Below, in pieces: positions 1-16,174 of a stretch of DNA of 16,174 nt. A program made the position numbers and the translations under genes. Below the pieces are notes generated by a model. The model saw nothing but the letters and a program-made list of their open reading frames with translations, made no database searches and was not told where the DNA came from. The stretch lies in NCBI GenBank assembly GCA_027064085.1, contig JAMOQH010000049.1, positions 1 to 16,174 on the forward strand, written 5' to 3'. This DNA is from a bacterium. Its GTDB lineage: Bacteria; UBP6; JAFGXH01. The first letter of the stretch is position 1. Each line of letters begins with the position of its first letter.

Positions 1-1
1 C

Positions 2-376
2 TTAGGAGATAGAAAACTTGATGATGATACTCATAAACTATTAAGAGAAGAAAAATTTAAAGGAAAGGAGTGTTATGTAGTTGAAAGTAAGCCAAAAGAT
101 TCAGACTACATGTATTCCAAAACAATTACATGGATTGTAAAAGGAAAAGATTTTGGGCTTAAAAAAGAATTTTACGACGAAGATGGTGAACATCTAAAAA
201 CATTATTTGTTGAAAGTTATAAAAATATTGATGGTTATTTAATCATAACAAAATCTATCATGAAAAACATACAAAAGAAACATAAAACTATTATGGAATT
301 ATCAAAAGTAAAGGTTGATAAAAATATTTCAGCTAAAAAATTCACAGAAAGAATGATGAAAAGGGGTATAAAATGA
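2..376 (+). CDS. Outer membrane lipoprotein-sorting protein (LolA-like family), 5'-partial
   Basis: The reading frame is open from the window edge, so only the C-terminal 124 residues are visible and the first Met (110) is internal. The visible part has the pattern of the LolA-like 'outer membrane lipoprotein-sorting protein' family: a YVVESKPKD strand, then WIVKGKDFGLKKEFYDEDGE, then 'LKTLFVESYKNIDGYLI' and a 'MELSKVKVDKNISAKKFTERMM' tail. Family members are periplasmic half-barrel proteins that carry lipid or lipoprotein, often encoded beside RND/MMPL-type exporters. The stop codon overlaps the start of the next gene (ATGA at 373-376), indicating translational coupling to the porin-like gene. 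The exporter partner, if present, would lie upstream of the window. Family assignment is from recognised motifs; the cargo is unknown. Confidence 0.82.
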   Translation, partial: LGDRKLDDDTHKLLREEKFKGKECYVVESKPKDSDYMYSKTITWIVKGKDFGLKKEFYDEDGEHLKTLFVESYKNIDGYLIITKSIMKNIQKKHKTIMELSKVKVDKNISAKKFTERMMKRGIK

Positions 377-3413: not shown

Positions 3414-3418
3414 CTCCT
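3414..3418 (-). promoter_or_regulatory. Ribosome binding site of the SpoIID gene, overlapping the secA stop
   Basis: AGGAG on the minus strand, five bases before ATT (3408-3406). It shares bases with the secA stop codon TAG (3419-3417). It is the only good Shine-Dalgarno upstream of this reading frame and is the main argument for the ATT start. Confidence 0.6.
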
Positions 3419-6400
3419 ATTTTTTACCTTTTTTAGCTTTTTTTCCTTTTTTAGATAACTTTTTTTTCTCGTATTTAGATTTAGGCTTAAATTTTCTTAC
3501 TTCTTTTTTCTTTGATTTTGAATCATCTTCAACTTCATCATCATAACCATCAGAAAGTTGCATTCTATTCATAAGTGCGTTATATTCGGCTTTTTCTTCT
3601 GTAAAATCAAAACCTTTTAAACCACCTAAGTTAGCATTCATGCTATGTAACATTGCCATTTTTTCTAATTCAGGGTCAGCTGCCAGTTCCTCAAGATTCA
3701 TTTCTAATCCCATGTTCATTTCATCTGCTGTTTCATATTCAACATCAAAATCATCATCATCTAATTGAGTATGAACAAGTTTTTTAATAAATCCAACTTT
3801 TATGTCATAAAGCATTTTAACAAATAATGCATATCCTTCTTTTTTATATTCAATTTTAGGATCTTTTTGTCCATATCCTCTTAAGCCAATACTTTCTCTT
3901 AATAAATCCATAGTTAAAAGATGATCTTTCCATTTGCCATCAAGTGTTTGTAAATAGTAATATCTCTCTATCTTTCTAAGATTAACAGAACCAATTTCAT
4001 CCTCTTTTTCTTTATAAAGTTTTTCTGCACTAAAATATATCATATCCTCAAGTTTTTCTCTATCTTGGATTTCTTTAAAATCCATTTCTATACCAAATAG
4101 ATCTTTTACTTTATCAGAAAGATACTTCCTATCCCATTCATCAGGTCTTGCCATATTAATGCCAATAGCCTTATCAATAATATTCATAGTAATTTCTTCA
4201 AGAATATCAAAAACTCTTTCTTTTAAGTTTAATCCATCAAGTAGATTTCTTCTTAGAGTATAAATTGTTTTTCTTTGAAGATTCATAACGTCATCATATT
4301 CAATAACATTTTTTCTAACATCAAAATGCATAGCTTCAACTTTTTTCTGTGCATTTGCAATTGATTTGGAAATCATTTTGTGTGTAATTGGTTGTCCTTC
4401 TTGATACCCAAGTTTTCCCATCATTCCACCAATTTTTTCACCACCAAACCTTTTCATTAAATCATCTTCTAAAGAAATAAAGAATCTACTTGCCCCTGGG
4501 TCACCTTGCCTACCACTACGGCCTCTTAACTGGTTATCAATTCTTCTACTTTCGTGTCTTTCTGTTCCAAGGATATATAGTCCACCCGCTTTTAATACCT
4601 TTTCCTTTTCTAAAACACATTGGTTTTCATATTTTTCAAATAACTCTTTATATTTTAATTCATATTCTTCATGCTCTTCATCTATATCAAGCTCAATAAG
4701 CTTATTTTCGGTTAATGATTCGGGGTTACCACCAAGTTTAATGTCAGTACCACGACCAGCCATATTTGTTGCAACAGTAACAGCCCCCAAACGACCAGCC
4801 TGAGAAACAATAAATGCTTCTTTTTTATGGTTTTTAGCATTTAAAACATTATGTTTTACACCAGCTTCCGTTAATGCTTCACTTATTTCTTCAGAGCTTT
4901 CAATAGAAATAGTACCAACAAGTATTGGTTGATTACCTGAATGAACCCTCTTGATTTCTTCAACAACGGCATCCATTTTCTCATCAATAGACCTATATAC
5001 TAAATCTTCCATATCTTTTCTAGCAATAGGTTTATTTGTAGGTATAACAATAACATCAAGTTTATAAATTTTTGCAAATTCTGCGGCTTCTGTATCTGCG
5101 GTACCCGTCATACCACTAAGCTTTTCATACATTCTAAAATAATTCTGAAATGTAATAGTTGCAAGTGTTTGATTTTCATTAGCTACTTCAGGTGGAACTC
5201 TGTCTTCTTCAGGAATATCTTCTCCTTTCCCTAAAAGTCTTTGAACTCTTAACGGTGTATTGATAGCTTCTTTAGCCTCAACCGCTTGATGCAAACCATC
5301 ACTCCAGCTTCTTCCATCCATCAATCGTCCAGTAAATTCATCTACAATAACAACTTTACCACCTTGAACTACATAATCAACACCTTCTTTAAAAATAAAA
5401 TGTGCTTTTAACGATTGCTCAACATGATGCATGTATTCAATATTTTCAGGAGCATATAGATTTGTTATACCCAATTCTTTTTCACATTTTTCAACACCTG
5501 CCTCTGTTAATAGAGATAATTTATCTTTAATATCTATGGTAAAATGTAAATCTTCCTTTAATTTTCTTACTACCTTATCTACAATAGCATATTTTTCAAC
5601 ATTACTTTCTTTAGGACCAGAAATAATCAATGGAGTTCTAGCTTCATCAATTAAAATACTATCTACCTCATCAACAATACAATAATGTAAATCTCTTTGA
5701 ACATAATCTTCGATATCATATTTCATATTATCACGAAGATAATCAAAACCAAATTCATTATTTGTACCATAAGTTATATCACTACCATATTCTAACTTTC
5801 TTTCATCATCATCAAGCCCATGAACAATAACTCCAACAGATAACCCTAAAAAATTATAAACTAATCCCATCCATTCAGCATCTCTTTTTGCTAGATAATC
5901 ATTAACTGTAACTAAATGAGCACCTTTACCTATGGGTAGAAGGCTACTATCCTCTTCCCAATAATCAGGATCAGGACCAAATTTCTCATAAGCTTCTGAT
6001 TTAGGAACATAAGTCCATGTTTCTTTATCTTCCGGGTCTTCTTTTAATATAAAAAACTCTTCATAAATCCAATTATCAGGATCATGTCCATAAGTTTTTT
6101 TGGCTGCCTCCACCCATTTACTATAAAGAGCCAATCCATTTAAATAAACAGGTAAAGTTGCTACCAAAGTTTTACCCTCACCTGTTTTCATTTCTGCAAT
6201 TTTACCTTGATGTAATACAATTCCACCAATCATCTGAACATCATAGAGTCTCATTTTGACTGTTCTTTTCGCAGCTTCTCTAACAACAGCAAATGCAGGA
6301 ACAATTAAATCATCTAGTTTTTTACCTTTAGCAATTTGCTTTCTAAAAATAACTGTTTGATTTTTTAATTCTTCATCGGACATTGCTTCATATTTACTTT

Positions 6401-6488
6401 CAAGACTATTAATTGCTTCAACAATAGGCTTTATTTTTTTTATTTCTCTCTCATTTTTACTACCAATTAATTTTTTAATAATTCCCAT
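3417..6488 (-). CDS. secA: Preprotein translocase ATPase SecA
   Basis: 1023 residues. SecA is the motor that drives unfolded preproteins through SecYEG. Visible elements in order: N-terminal helix, Walker A 'MKTGEGKT' (100-107), 'VTVNDYLAKRDAEWMG' (193-208), DEVD Walker B (273-276), 'DEARTPLIISGP', the preprotein cross-linking region, 'DEFTGRLMDGRSWSDGLHQAVEAKE', 'LSGMTGTADTEAAEF', 'TNMAGRGTDIKLGG', 'LRGRSGRQGDPGASRF', and the helical wing/scaffold with 'IEYDDVMNLQRKTIY'. About 65 extra residues (121-186) sit between Walker A and 'GKGAHLVTVNDYL' and carry two similar motifs, YGHDPDNW and FGPDPDYW. The C terminus is a long Lys-rich tail and lacks the Cys/His zinc-binding motif that binds SecB in many SecAs. 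AAGGA precedes the ATG. It lies 15 bp after the thioredoxin gene, in one operon. Confidence 0.98.
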   Translation of the reverse strand: MGIIKKLIGSKNEREIKKIKPIVEAINSLESKYEAMSDEELKNQTVIFRKQIAKGKKLDDLIVPAFAVVREAAKRTVKMRLYDVQMIGGIVLHQGKIAEMKTGEGKTLVATLPVYLNGLALYSKWVEAAKKTYGHDPDNWIYEEFFILKEDPEDKETWTYVPKSEAYEKFGPDPDYWEEDSSLLPIGKGAHLVTVNDYLAKRDAEWMGLVYNFLGLSVGVIVHGLDDDERKLEYGSDITYGTNNEFGFDYLRDNMKYDIEDYVQRDLHYCIVDEVDSILIDEARTPLIISGPKESNVEKYAIVDKVVRKLKEDLHFTIDIKDKLSLLTEAGVEKCEKELGITNLYAPENIEYMHHVEQSLKAHFIFKEGVDYVVQGGKVVIVDEFTGRLMDGRSWSDGLHQAVEAKEAINTPLRVQRLLGKGEDIPEEDRVPPEVANENQTLATITFQNYFRMYEKLSGMTGTADTEAAEFAKIYKLDVIVIPTNKPIARKDMEDLVYRSIDEKMDAVVEEIKRVHSGNQPILVGTISIESSEEISEALTEAGVKHNVLNAKNHKKEAFIVSQAGRLGAVTVATNMAGRGTDIKLGGNPESLTENKLIELDIDEEHEEYELKYKELFEKYENQCVLEKEKVLKAGGLYILGTERHESRRIDNQLRGRSGRQGDPGASRFFISLEDDLMKRFGGEKIGGMMGKLGYQEGQPITHKMISKSIANAQKKVEAMHFDVRKNVIEYDDVMNLQRKTIYTLRRNLLDGLNLKERVFDILEEITMNIIDKAIGINMARPDEWDRKYLSDKVKDLFGIEMDFKEIQDREKLEDMIYFSAEKLYKEKEDEIGSVNLRKIERYYYLQTLDGKWKDHLLTMDLLRESIGLRGYGQKDPKIEYKKEGYALFVKMLYDIKVGFIKKLVHTQLDDDDFDVEYETADEMNMGLEMNLEELAADPELEKMAMLHSMNANLGGLKGFDFTEEKAEYNALMNRMQLSDGYDDEVEDDSKSKKKEVRKFKPKSKYEKKKLSKKGKKAKKGKK

Positions 6489-7387: not shown

Positions 7388-7460
7388 AGCGGGTGACGGG
7401 TCTCGAACCCGTGACCCTCAGCTTGGAAGGCTGATGCTCTACCAATTGAGCTACACCCGC
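7388..7460 (-). tRNA. tRNA-Gly (anticodon UCC)
   Basis: 73 bases on the minus strand. The acceptor stem is GCGGGTG paired with CACCCGC, with discriminator U at 7388 as usual for bacterial tRNA-Gly. The D-arm (GTAGCTCAATTGGTAGAGC), anticodon loop CTTCCAA with TCC at 7427-7425, and a T-arm with GTTCGAG are all present. The 3' CCA is not encoded (T-run follows), so it must be added after transcription. It is last of the four genes in the cluster. Confidence 0.97.
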
Positions 7461-7466
7461 AAAAAA

Positions 7467-7551
7467 TGGTGGTGGGGGAAGGATTTGAACCTTCGAAGGC
7501 TCTGCCGTCAGATTTACAGTCTGATCCCTTTGACCACTCGGGAACCCCACC
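7467..7551 (-). tRNA. tRNA-Tyr (anticodon GUA)
   Basis: 85 bases including an encoded CCA (7469-7467). The acceptor stem is GGTGGGG with CCCCACC and discriminator A. The anticodon loop is CTGTAAA, giving GUA, and the long variable arm expected of bacterial tRNA-Tyr is present. It is six bases from tRNA-Gly and is probably co-transcribed with it. Confidence 0.97.
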
Positions 7552-7567
7552 AAATTTTATGAAAATA

Positions 7568-7653
7568 CGGAGAGAGGGGGATTCGAACCCCCGGATGGTG
7601 TTGCCATCACACGATTAGCAATCGTGCGCCTTAAGCCACTCGGCCATCTCTCC
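7568..7653 (-). tRNA. tRNA-Ser (anticodon GCU)
   Basis: 86 bases. The acceptor stem is GGAGAGA with TCTCTCC and discriminator G. The anticodon loop TTGCTAA gives GCU, which reads AGC/AGU serine codons. A long variable arm (TGATGGCAACACCATC) is typical of serine tRNAs. The CCA is not encoded (TAT follows the discriminator). Confidence 0.97.
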
Positions 7654-7672
7654 ATTTGTTTATATTGAAAAG

Positions 7673-7698
7673 AAAAGGGGCAATTGATTGCCCCTTTT
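7673..7698 (-). terminator. Rho-independent terminator after tRNA-Ser(UGA)
   Basis: An 11-bp perfect stem, arms AAAAGGGGCAA and TTGCCCCTTTT with a 4-base loop, reads on the minus strand directly into TTTTCTTTTC. It begins at the base next to the encoded CCA of tRNA-Ser(UGA), so the terminator stem abuts the mature tRNA end. Its symmetry means it could also act on the plus strand. It separates tRNA-Ser(UGA) from the three downstream tRNA genes. Confidence 0.8.
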
Positions 7699-7786
7699 TG
7701 GCGGAGAATGAGGGATTCGAACCCCCGGATGCGGTTACATCAACGGTTTTCAAAACCGTCGCCTTAAACCACTCGGCCAATTCTCC
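7699..7786 (-). tRNA. tRNA-Ser (anticodon UGA)
   Basis: 88 bases including an encoded CCA (7701-7699). The acceptor stem is GGAGAAT with ATTCTCC and discriminator G. The anticodon loop TTTGAAA gives UGA, which reads UCN-type serine codons. It has a long variable arm and a T-arm with one G-U pair. It is preceded by its own strong promoter and followed immediately by a terminator, so it looks like a single-gene transcription unit. Confidence 0.97.
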
Positions 7787-8064: not shown

Positions 8065-9627
8065 ATGAATAAAAAACTAAAAAAGTTACCTGTTGGTATC
8101 TATACACTAGAAAAGATAATAAACGAAAATTATCTCTATATTGATAAAACAAATATTGCTCTTGATATTATTGAAAATAATGAATATGTGTTTTTATCAC
8201 GCCCACGCCGTTTTGGTAAATCCTTGTTTTTAGATACCCTAAAAAATATTTTTGAAGGAAATAGCGAGCTTTTTAAAGAGCTTTATATTTATGATAAATA
8301 TAATTGGGATAAAAAATATCCTGTGATAAAAATTAATTTTGCAAACGGTAATATAAGAAATAGAAAAGAACTTGATAATAGAATCATTACTATTTTAAAG
8401 GAAAATCAAAAAAGATTAGATGTTTTTTGTAGTGATGATAAAGATGTTGCTGGATGTTTTAGAGAATTAATAATCAAATCACAGGAAAAATATAATGAAA
8501 AGGTAGTTATTTTAATTGATGAATACGATAAACCTATACTTGACAATATTACCAATAAAGAATCAGCTTTTGAAATAAGAGAGGGATTAAGAAACCTTTA
8601 TTCCGTAATAAAAGGAAGTGATGAATTTTTAAAATTTGCATTTTTAACCGGTGTCAGTAAATTTACTAAAACTAGTATTTTTAGTGGACTTAATAATATT
8701 ACAGATATAACTCTTAATCCAAAATATGGAAATGTTTGTGGCTATACTCAAAATGATATAGAAACTTCATTTTTACCACATTTAAATGGTGTTGATTTAG
8801 AAAAACTAAAAATATGGTATAATGGATATAATTTTTTAAAAAATAAAGTGTACAATCCATACAATATCTTACTTTTTATTCAAAATAACTATCAATATAA
8901 AAATTATTGGTTTGAAAGCGGAACGCCATCGTTTTTAATTAAACTTATTAAAGAGAATAATTATTTTTTACCAGAATTGTCGGATATTACAATTGGAGAG
9001 GAAATAATAAATTCTTTTGATGTTGATAATATAAAAGTAGAAACATTACTCTTTCAAACAGGATATTTAACAATAGATGAAGTAACTACAACTTTTTTTG
9101 AAACACTTCAGTATAAATTAAAAATTCCTAACAAAGAAGTTCAGATTTCCTTAAATGATAAATTTATTGATTTTCTTACTAGAAACAATAAGCTAATTAA
9201 GAATAAAAATAATACATACCTATCATTACTTGAAGGAGAGTTGGAAACTTTTCATAAAACATTAAAAACTTTATTTTCATCAATACCTTACAACAACTAT
9301 GTAAATAACAATATTCTACATTATGAAGGTTACTACAGTAGTGTAATTTACGCTTATCTTGCTTCTCTTGGCTTAACTATTATTGCCGAAGATGTAACAA
9401 ATAAGGGTAGAGTTGACTTAACTATCATTATCAATAACATAGTTTATATTTTTGAATTTAAAGTATTAAAATCAACCCCAAAAACCAATACTGCATTAAA
9501 TCAAATAATAAAAAATAACTATCATGAAAAATATATATCCAAATATAAGGATATTTACCTTATTGGAATTATTTTTAATGAAGATAAAAGAAATATTGTT
9601 AAATTTAATAGTAAAAAAATAAAATAA
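8065..9627 (+). CDS. AAA-ATPase-like domain protein with C-terminal PD-(D/E)XK nuclease domain
   Basis: 520 residues with a strong AGGAGG before the ATG. The N terminus 'LPVGIYTLEKIINENYLYIDKT' (8-29) and 'YVFLSRPRRFGKSLFLDTL' (41-59) are signatures of the AAA-ATPase_like family; the P-loop is the variant RPRRFGKS (46-53), and Walker B is 'VVILIDEYDKP' (147-157). The C-terminal 120 residues fit the PD-(D/E)XK-type domain usually fused to it: 'YEGYYSSVIYAYLASLGL', GRVD (448-451), then IFEFK with Glu464 and Lys466 (D-x12-ExK). The family is frequent and often multi-copy in anaerobic and host-associated bacteria. Its function is not established; mobile-element or defence roles have been suggested from the nuclease fold. 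It stands alone behind its own promoter, next to a tRNA cluster. No integrase or other mobile gene is seen beside it. Confidence 0.92.
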   Translation: MNKKLKKLPVGIYTLEKIINENYLYIDKTNIALDIIENNEYVFLSRPRRFGKSLFLDTLKNIFEGNSELFKELYIYDKYNWDKKYPVIKINFANGNIRNRKELDNRIITILKENQKRLDVFCSDDKDVAGCFRELIIKSQEKYNEKVVILIDEYDKPILDNITNKESAFEIREGLRNLYSVIKGSDEFLKFAFLTGVSKFTKTSIFSGLNNITDITLNPKYGNVCGYTQNDIETSFLPHLNGVDLEKLKIWYNGYNFLKNKVYNPYNILLFIQNNYQYKNYWFESGTPSFLIKLIKENNYFLPELSDITIGEEIINSFDVDNIKVETLLFQTGYLTIDEVTTTFFETLQYKLKIPNKEVQISLNDKFIDFLTRNNKLIKNKNNTYLSLLEGELETFHKTLKTLFSSIPYNNYVNNNILHYEGYYSSVIYAYLASLGLTIIAEDVTNKGRVDLTIIINNIVYIFEFKVLKSTPKTNTALNQIIKNNYHEKYISKYKDIYLIGIIFNEDKRNIVKFNSKKIK

Positions 9628-14618: not shown

Positions 14619-16174
14619 TTAATTACCATGTATGATTACTCTATAAGCATGAATCTTAAAATCAGCCGTTTTATTTTGAGCAATCACCCTAAAAGCAACA
14701 GATAAACCTTCTGTATCCTCCATAATTTTATTTCCAAAATCTGGTACATTAAAAGTATGTATTGCAGTATGACTTCCTGTTGCAAAAGTAAAGTTAGAAG
14801 TATCAGCCACTAGTATTCTTGTTGTGTTATCGGGGTTAAATCTAGCTTGAATATAAACATCATAATCTAAGTTTTGCTCACTATTATTTGTGTATTCAAC
14901 TTCAAGAGTAATGGTTTTATTTTCAAATTGAAATACATTAGGAATAATTTGTCTTATATACAAATACCCTAAAACCGAACTATAGCTTGCATTAACCTGA
15001 ACTCCATCTGAAATATTTGTTGTAGAAACTATAAGATTATCATCTTGAGTTTTTAGTATCCAATTTGGTGAAATGTGAACACCTCCACCATGAATATTTT
15101 GATTATTAATATTATAATTAATTAATTTAAATCTAGAATCTTCAATTTTATTTCCTTCTGGACCAAGAGTACATGTAGCACCTGAATCAAGATTTCCTGT
15201 TGTACAAATTGAATTCCAAATTATATTACCATAATTATCATAAAGCCCTAGCTTTTCATTATCAATAGTTAAATGATGAACACCCATTCTATTTGTTCCT
15301 GATGCCCATAAAGCTTGATTACTCGCATTATAAACAACTAAATTACCATCTGCTTGGAACCTAAAAAAATAATTACAATTTGAGCAACCAGTATTAGTAT
15401 CAGTTTCCCAAAGAGCTGAAGTATCATAAAGTACAAGATTACCATCAGATTGCATATTAAGTGAAGATTGTTGCAACTCAACAGTTTCTCCCATATTTAA
15501 TCTTAAACTATTAGGATAAAATGTCTTTGAAATAGGAATAATTAAACAATTCAGCCCATCTTGATAGTAACCATCATCACAATTACAAATAGGGCTTTCA
15601 TGTACAAGCTCACAATCACCATGATTGCTACAAGTTATAGGCTCACAAGGGTTAATACAATAATGATTACTACATATTAAATTACTATTATTACAATCAC
15701 TTGTCATGTCGCATCTTCCTGCGATCAACTCACAATCACCATTAGTTTCATTACATTCTTTCCAAGAATCACAGGTTACATTATAACAGTTTCCATTAGC
15801 TACACAATTACCAGATTCTAAATGAAAGTTTGTATCACAAAAACAAGAATTATTACTACAATGCTCATTTGTAGAGCAAATGCCACAGTTAATATCAGAA
15901 CCACAAGTATCGTCAATATTTCCACATTCTGCGTTTAATTGGCTACATGTTTTAGGAGTACAAGTCGCTTCACATTGCTTTGTATCAGTATTACAGATAT
16001 CTGTACCACTACAAGTACCACAATCTAAACTAACACCACAGCCATTATCAATATTTCCACATTCTGCGTTTAATTGGCTACATGTTTTAGGAGTACAAGT
16101 CGCTTCACATTGCTTTGTATCAGTATTACAGATATCTGTACCACTACAAGTACCACAATCTAAACTAACACCAC
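14619..16174 (-). CDS. Cys-rich repeat / EGF-like / bulb-type lectin surface protein, 5'-partial
   Basis: The frame is open to the window edge (first full codon 16172), so 517 C-terminal residues are visible; the TTG at 15728 is internal. Residues 1-90 are tandem 45-residue Cys repeats (CTPKTCSQLNAECGNID..CGVSLDCGTC). More diverged Cys-rich segments follow to about 175, then an EGF-like module (176-209: C.P..CSNHGDC, then CNCDDGYYQDGLNC). There are 36 Cys in the first 209 residues. Residues 222-322 are a bulb-type mannose-binding lectin domain with the motif QxDxNxVxY at 241-249 (QSDGNLVLY) and 273-281 (QADGNLVVY) and a degenerate third copy near 304-311. The final 180 residues look beta-rich and end HAYRVIIHGN; I cannot assign them. 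Export is inferred from the cysteines. A role in adhesion or glycan binding is likely but unproven. Confidence 0.88.
   Translation of the reverse strand, partial: GVSLDCGTCSGTDICNTDTKQCEATCTPKTCSQLNAECGNIDNGCGVSLDCGTCSGTDICNTDTKQCEATCTPKTCSQLNAECGNIDDTCGSDINCGICSTNEHCSNNSCFCDTNFHLESGNCVANGNCYNVTCDSWKECNETNGDCELIAGRCDMTSDCNNSNLICSNHYCINPCEPITCSNHGDCELVHESPICNCDDGYYQDGLNCLIIPISKTFYPNSLRLNMGETVELQQSSLNMQSDGNLVLYDTSALWETDTNTGCSNCNYFFRFQADGNLVVYNASNQALWASGTNRMGVHHLTIDNEKLGLYDNYGNIIWNSICTTGNLDSGATCTLGPEGNKIEDSRFKLINYNINNQNIHGGGVHISPNWILKTQDDNLIVSTTNISDGVQVNASYSSVLGYLYIRQIIPNVFQFENKTITLEVEYTNNSEQNLDYDVYIQARFNPDNTTRILVADTSNFTFATGSHTAIHTFNVPDFGNKIMEDTEGLSVAFRVIAQNKTADFKIHAYRVIIHGN
15914..16174 (-). 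repeat. 135-bp coding tandem repeat, continuing past the window
   Basis: Positions 15914-16048 and 16049-16174 repeat with a period of 135 bp; the 126 visible bases of the second copy are identical to the first. Each unit encodes 45 residues with nine cysteines and keeps the frame. The array runs off the window, so the copy number is unknown. Perfect identity including silent positions points to recent duplication or gene conversion. Confidence 0.93.

Follow-up and report, generated by a model that had tools for sequence, protein, structure and literature searches.

TraA of myxobacteria carries Cys-rich repeats that have been proposed to form a stalk, and its first four tandem repeats are individually dispensable (PMC6372800; PMC3325183). 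The repeats lie on the cell surface and their number differs between orthologs (PMC6372800). The protein encoded at one end of contig C49, described here, resembles TraA of Myxococcus xanthus in combining a sugar-binding-type domain (PA14 lectin-like in TraA) with tandem Cys-rich repeats, but the TraA repeats belong to another family (TIGR04201), the C49 lectin domain appears to be of the bulb type and, in contrast to TraA, the visible C-terminus of the C49 protein shows no obvious MYXO-CTERM tag. Modules found in Myxococcota and Deltaproteobacteria (consensus CxPTTC-x6-CGxIxDGCGxTLxCGTC...C...C) have the same core cysteine spacing as those of C49, with 33-51% identity per module, and likewise occur in tandem in large proteins, although their copies are mostly diverged, unlike the identical ones of C49. 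As to the way in which the contig ends, a repeat that exceeds the word (k) is expected to halt a de Bruijn assembler or to be collapsed by it (PMC6868369). Like published tandem-repeat breaks, C49 breaks off where k or more bases repeat perfectly, but it differs from them in that its k (127) is legible from the sequence itself.

The window (the whole stretch of DNA that was analysed, 16,174 nucleotides) is the entire contig C49 (G000:C49:1-16174) of a genome bin with 195 contigs. Its last bases are filled by an exact tandem repeat (15913-16174; period 135, 1.9 copies, 100% match by TRF) within a 517-codon reading frame on the minus strand (14619-16172) whose N-terminal end is open. Read from the N-terminus, the visible protein starts with the module array, followed by the EGF-like pair and a probable bulb-type lectin domain, and closes with a domain that matches no family. 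The features are as follows:

14619-16174, minus strand: partial gene (open frame) for a Cys-rich, EGF-like and B-lectin protein, its N-terminal part lying beyond the contig end
16098-16174, minus strand: module 1, C-terminal 77 bases only, the rest cut by the contig end (from module phase)
15963-16097, minus strand: module 2, complete, CTPKTCSQLNAECGNIDNGCGVSLDCGTCSGTDICNTDTKQCEAT, eight cysteines (from module phase)
15828-15962, minus strand: module 3, of which the first 50 bases (15913-15962) equal module 2, the remainder being diverged and leading into an EGF-like stretch
15534-15788, minus strand: Cys-rich/EGF-like pair, common to many proteins of this genome and its family
15192-15515, minus strand: probable bulb-type (monocot mannose-binding type) lectin domain with intact QxDxNxVxY motifs QSDGNLVLY and QADGNLVVY (Pfam and solved-lectin matches)
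14622-15185, minus strand: C-terminal domain, mostly predicted beta strands (low-confidence model), no family
15913-16174, minus strand: exact period-135 run, read as the loop edge of a k=127 de Bruijn graph (TRF, script, 127-base contig-end overlaps)
16048-16174, minus strand: second occurrence of a 127-base word whose first occurrence is 15913-16039; the contig stops here (script)

The arrangement is very probably a tandem module duplication in the gene of what is probably an exported lectin protein, with the contig having stopped at a k=127 repeat loop. By script, 127 consecutive bases, from 16048 to the last base (16174), are identical to those 135 bases away, giving a periodic run of 262 bases (127 + 135), which cannot be due to chance. 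A preliminary description had recognised the exact 135-bp tandem repeat and its end at 16174, but gave the identical overlap as 126 bases and the start of the run as 15914, one base short in each case. Split by module, the identical bases are 77 shared by modules 1 and 2 and 50 shared by module 2 and the start of module 3. Beyond the run it falls sharply, to 33/63 bases over 15850-15912, in agreement with the earlier observation that the flank at 15850-15913 matches only partly, and to 61/135 over 15778-15912. No 25-base word recurs elsewhere in the window outside the period-135 repeat (script). A circular element whose two ends overlap was discarded as a reading, as the repeat is internal to one end and no other 25-base word is repeated.

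Since the window is one whole contig, the repeat that had been described as running off the window in fact runs off a contig end. With about 15 contig starts as queries, three pairs of contigs from the same genome were found to overlap by exactly 127 bases (C9/C12, C1/C21 and C14/C39; all three confirmed by string comparison), which is the signature of breaks in a de Bruijn graph with k=127 and gives the word size of the assembler. In SPAdes-type assemblers the word size usually goes up to 127. The expected length of a loop edge, k plus the period (127 + 135 = 262), matches the observed run exactly, suggesting that C49 stopped at a repeat loop in the graph of a short-read assembler with this word size; such an assembler would be unable to traverse a perfect stretch of 127 bases or more, and the contig would end at the loop. 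For the loop to exist, the junction between copies must be present in reads, so the tandem repeat at 15913-16174 is probably real. The copy number of about two is a lower bound only, corresponding to no less than one complete repeat and 127 further bases in reads. A continuation of the lectin gene was sought among the contigs of the bin and none was found. At the other end of the contig, window positions 1-127 match G000:C43:3119-3245 at all but one base, 25 bases short of where C43 ends; strain variation in the population probably broke the assembly here.

The unit of the array is a 45-residue module containing eight cysteines whatever the phase, rather than nine as previously proposed. In C49 the spacing is C-x4-C-x6-C-x6-C-x5-C-x2-C-x5-C-x6-C, with the core CG..D.CG..L.CG.C, the last gaps varying among copies. 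Alignment places it, by spacing and core, in an unnamed eight-cysteine module of Myxococcota, and the C49 module matches the profile at E 7.4e-15, a value obtained with a query alignment that includes the window itself. The cysteine pattern is retained in 25 further module copies, mostly from MAGs of Myxococcota and Deltaproteobacteria, and one 1320-residue Myxococcota protein has nine modules by strict pattern and more by profile (the wider census of Myxococcota covered three genomes). Within the phylum of the window, seven other genomes have one module copy each and the two nearest relatives, from the same family, have none by profile search. With at most one copy in each of the other genomes, expansion within this phylum is confined to the genome of the window. 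The module was also found on JAGVIM010000226.1 (66% identity in the best segment), filed under a Nanoarchaeota MAG and possibly a mis-binned contig, while searches of plasmid and phage collections gave nothing similar.

None of the 26 module copies matches any Pfam-A or NCBIfam family at E<=1. Membership of TIGR04201 (Myxo_Cys_RPT, the TraA repeat; cut-off 25 bits) or TIGR02232 (myxo_disulf_rpt; cut-off 20.8 bits) was rejected for the C49 repeats, because the 81 and 8 matches in the genome, respectively, at E<=10 include none on that contig. The structure model of one module is confident (mean pLDDT 85), and comparison with solved structures gave no significant match in Foldseek (best E 1.4, to EGF-like domains of coagulation factors) and no Z of 2 or more with VIA-align. 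A literature search on contig termination at word size and on the module found no paper on the eight-cysteine module itself.

Two other genes of the same genome carry closely similar module copies away from contig ends. The gene on C52 has two, 97.6% identical over 126 bases (3/126 differ; period 129, longest exact run 110), and in the one on C182 a related module occurs three times, copies one and two being 99% identical over 105 bases (1/105 differs; period 108, longest exact run 113). Both exact runs are shorter than 127 bases, so these genes were assembled through, and their recent module duplications make a real duplication the better reading of C49 also. In the C52 gene the cysteine modules are followed by a region with a weak match to a carbohydrate-binding domain, and in the C182 gene by a lamin-tail domain. 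An independent case comes from Myxococcales: the MAG contig CAMCLY010000093.1 likewise breaks off within an array of this module, and at its end exactly 55 bases are identical at period 123, a break of the same type with 55 as the word size. By default, metaSPAdes uses words of up to 55. The C49 genome adds a lineage in which this disulfide module, common across Myxococcota, has undergone recent duplication more than once.

The lectin domain has significant sequence similarity to bulb-type lectins, matching the solved structures of gastrodianin (E 1.6e-15) and also of pyocin L1 and putidacin L1. Pfam B_lectin (PF01453) matches the protein at E 1.6e-6, with 29 bits against a gathering cut-off of 32.4, and by inspection two of three QxDxNxVxY motifs are intact. 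The likeness to lectin-like bacteriocins is at the level of this domain only, the whole protein scoring 62.9 against a 275-bit cut-off. Predicted from a single sequence, the full 517-residue protein gave a poor model (mean pLDDT 38), which was left out of fold searches. The contig breaks off before the N-terminus of the C49 protein is reached. Its paralogs encoded on C52, C182 and C151 begin with a hydrophobic segment that runs up to a lipobox-like cysteine (FLTSC, VISC and ILSC), and on this basis the C49 protein is probably also exported, as a surface-exposed outer-membrane lipoprotein. Many lipoprotein-like proteins with EGF-like modules ahead of another domain are encoded in this genome and its family. 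In five of them (L005, L006, L012, L013 and L039) the following domain is enzyme-looking or unassigned, with amylase-like, glucoamylase-like and nuclease-like appearances among them by inspection.

In the visible part nearest the N-terminus, one 45-residue, eight-cysteine module has probably been duplicated in tandem, most likely through slippage or through unequal recombination of neighbouring modules. Slippage and unequal recombination are the ordinary route to such arrays. By analogy with the stalk proposed for TraA, the array would most likely act as a disulfide-stiffened spacer keeping the lectin away from the outer membrane.

The perfect identity between copies had been taken as a sign of very recent duplication or ongoing homogenisation. 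A real tandem duplication is favoured by the proposed loop and by the paralogs on C52 and C182, but the contig breaks off at the very base that brings the match to 127, the word size, so the visible identity was necessarily perfect. Copies differing inside the word would have let the assembler continue, as it did in the C52 and C182 genes. Identity over all comparable bases is thus largely accounted for by the break, being a condition of it and not an independent sign of recency or homogenisation, and reading the word size from contig ends in this way provides a worked example that guards against over-reading 'perfect' repeats located there. Copy-number variation of the C49 array is plausible. 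As a tentative alternative, the array may still be undergoing homogenisation and differ in copy number from strain to strain, giving a surface protein of varying length. This would fit the abrupt drop from 127 perfect bases to about 50% identity at 15912/15913, which resembles the border of a tract recently duplicated or converted, the near-identical module copies in two other genes and the possible SNP-level population variation at the other contig end; against it, the identity seen is not a free observation, and the differences between paralog copies (three bases in C52 and one in C182) mean that homogenisation there is incomplete.

An old, fixed spacer of two or three modules, maintained by selection and with no special instability, is unlikely. 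Arrays of diverged modules in Myxococcota relatives, such as the protein of 1320 residues with at least nine, provide a precedent, but 127 identical bases including silent sites would be unexpected after an old duplication, and in Myxococcota frames with such modules the longest exact periodic runs are mostly 9-33 bases, with three at 54-93. Rather improbable is the more far-reaching proposal that the reach of a surface lectin is set by a long array of identical eight-cysteine modules, of a disulfide fold without a family model or clear solved-structure match, and that this array is hypervariable, differing in length between cells of one population. An assembly error, with no tandem repeat and a module joined into itself via a word shared with another locus, is very unlikely: the copy is present only at the contig end, with the length of the word, and chimeric path joins do occur, but a loop edge without inner branch points needs reads carrying the junction, no second locus with the 127-base word exists in the bin, and the tandem copies of the paralogs were assembled in contig interiors.

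Elsewhere in the window, a protein with AAA-ATPase_like and PDDEXK_9 domains (8065-9627) adjoins four clustered tRNA genes (7388-7786, minus strand), and SecA (3417-6488; 1023 residues) has an apparent insertion of ~80 residues (LYSKWVEAAKKTYGHDPDNWIYEEFF...) in its first motor domain.
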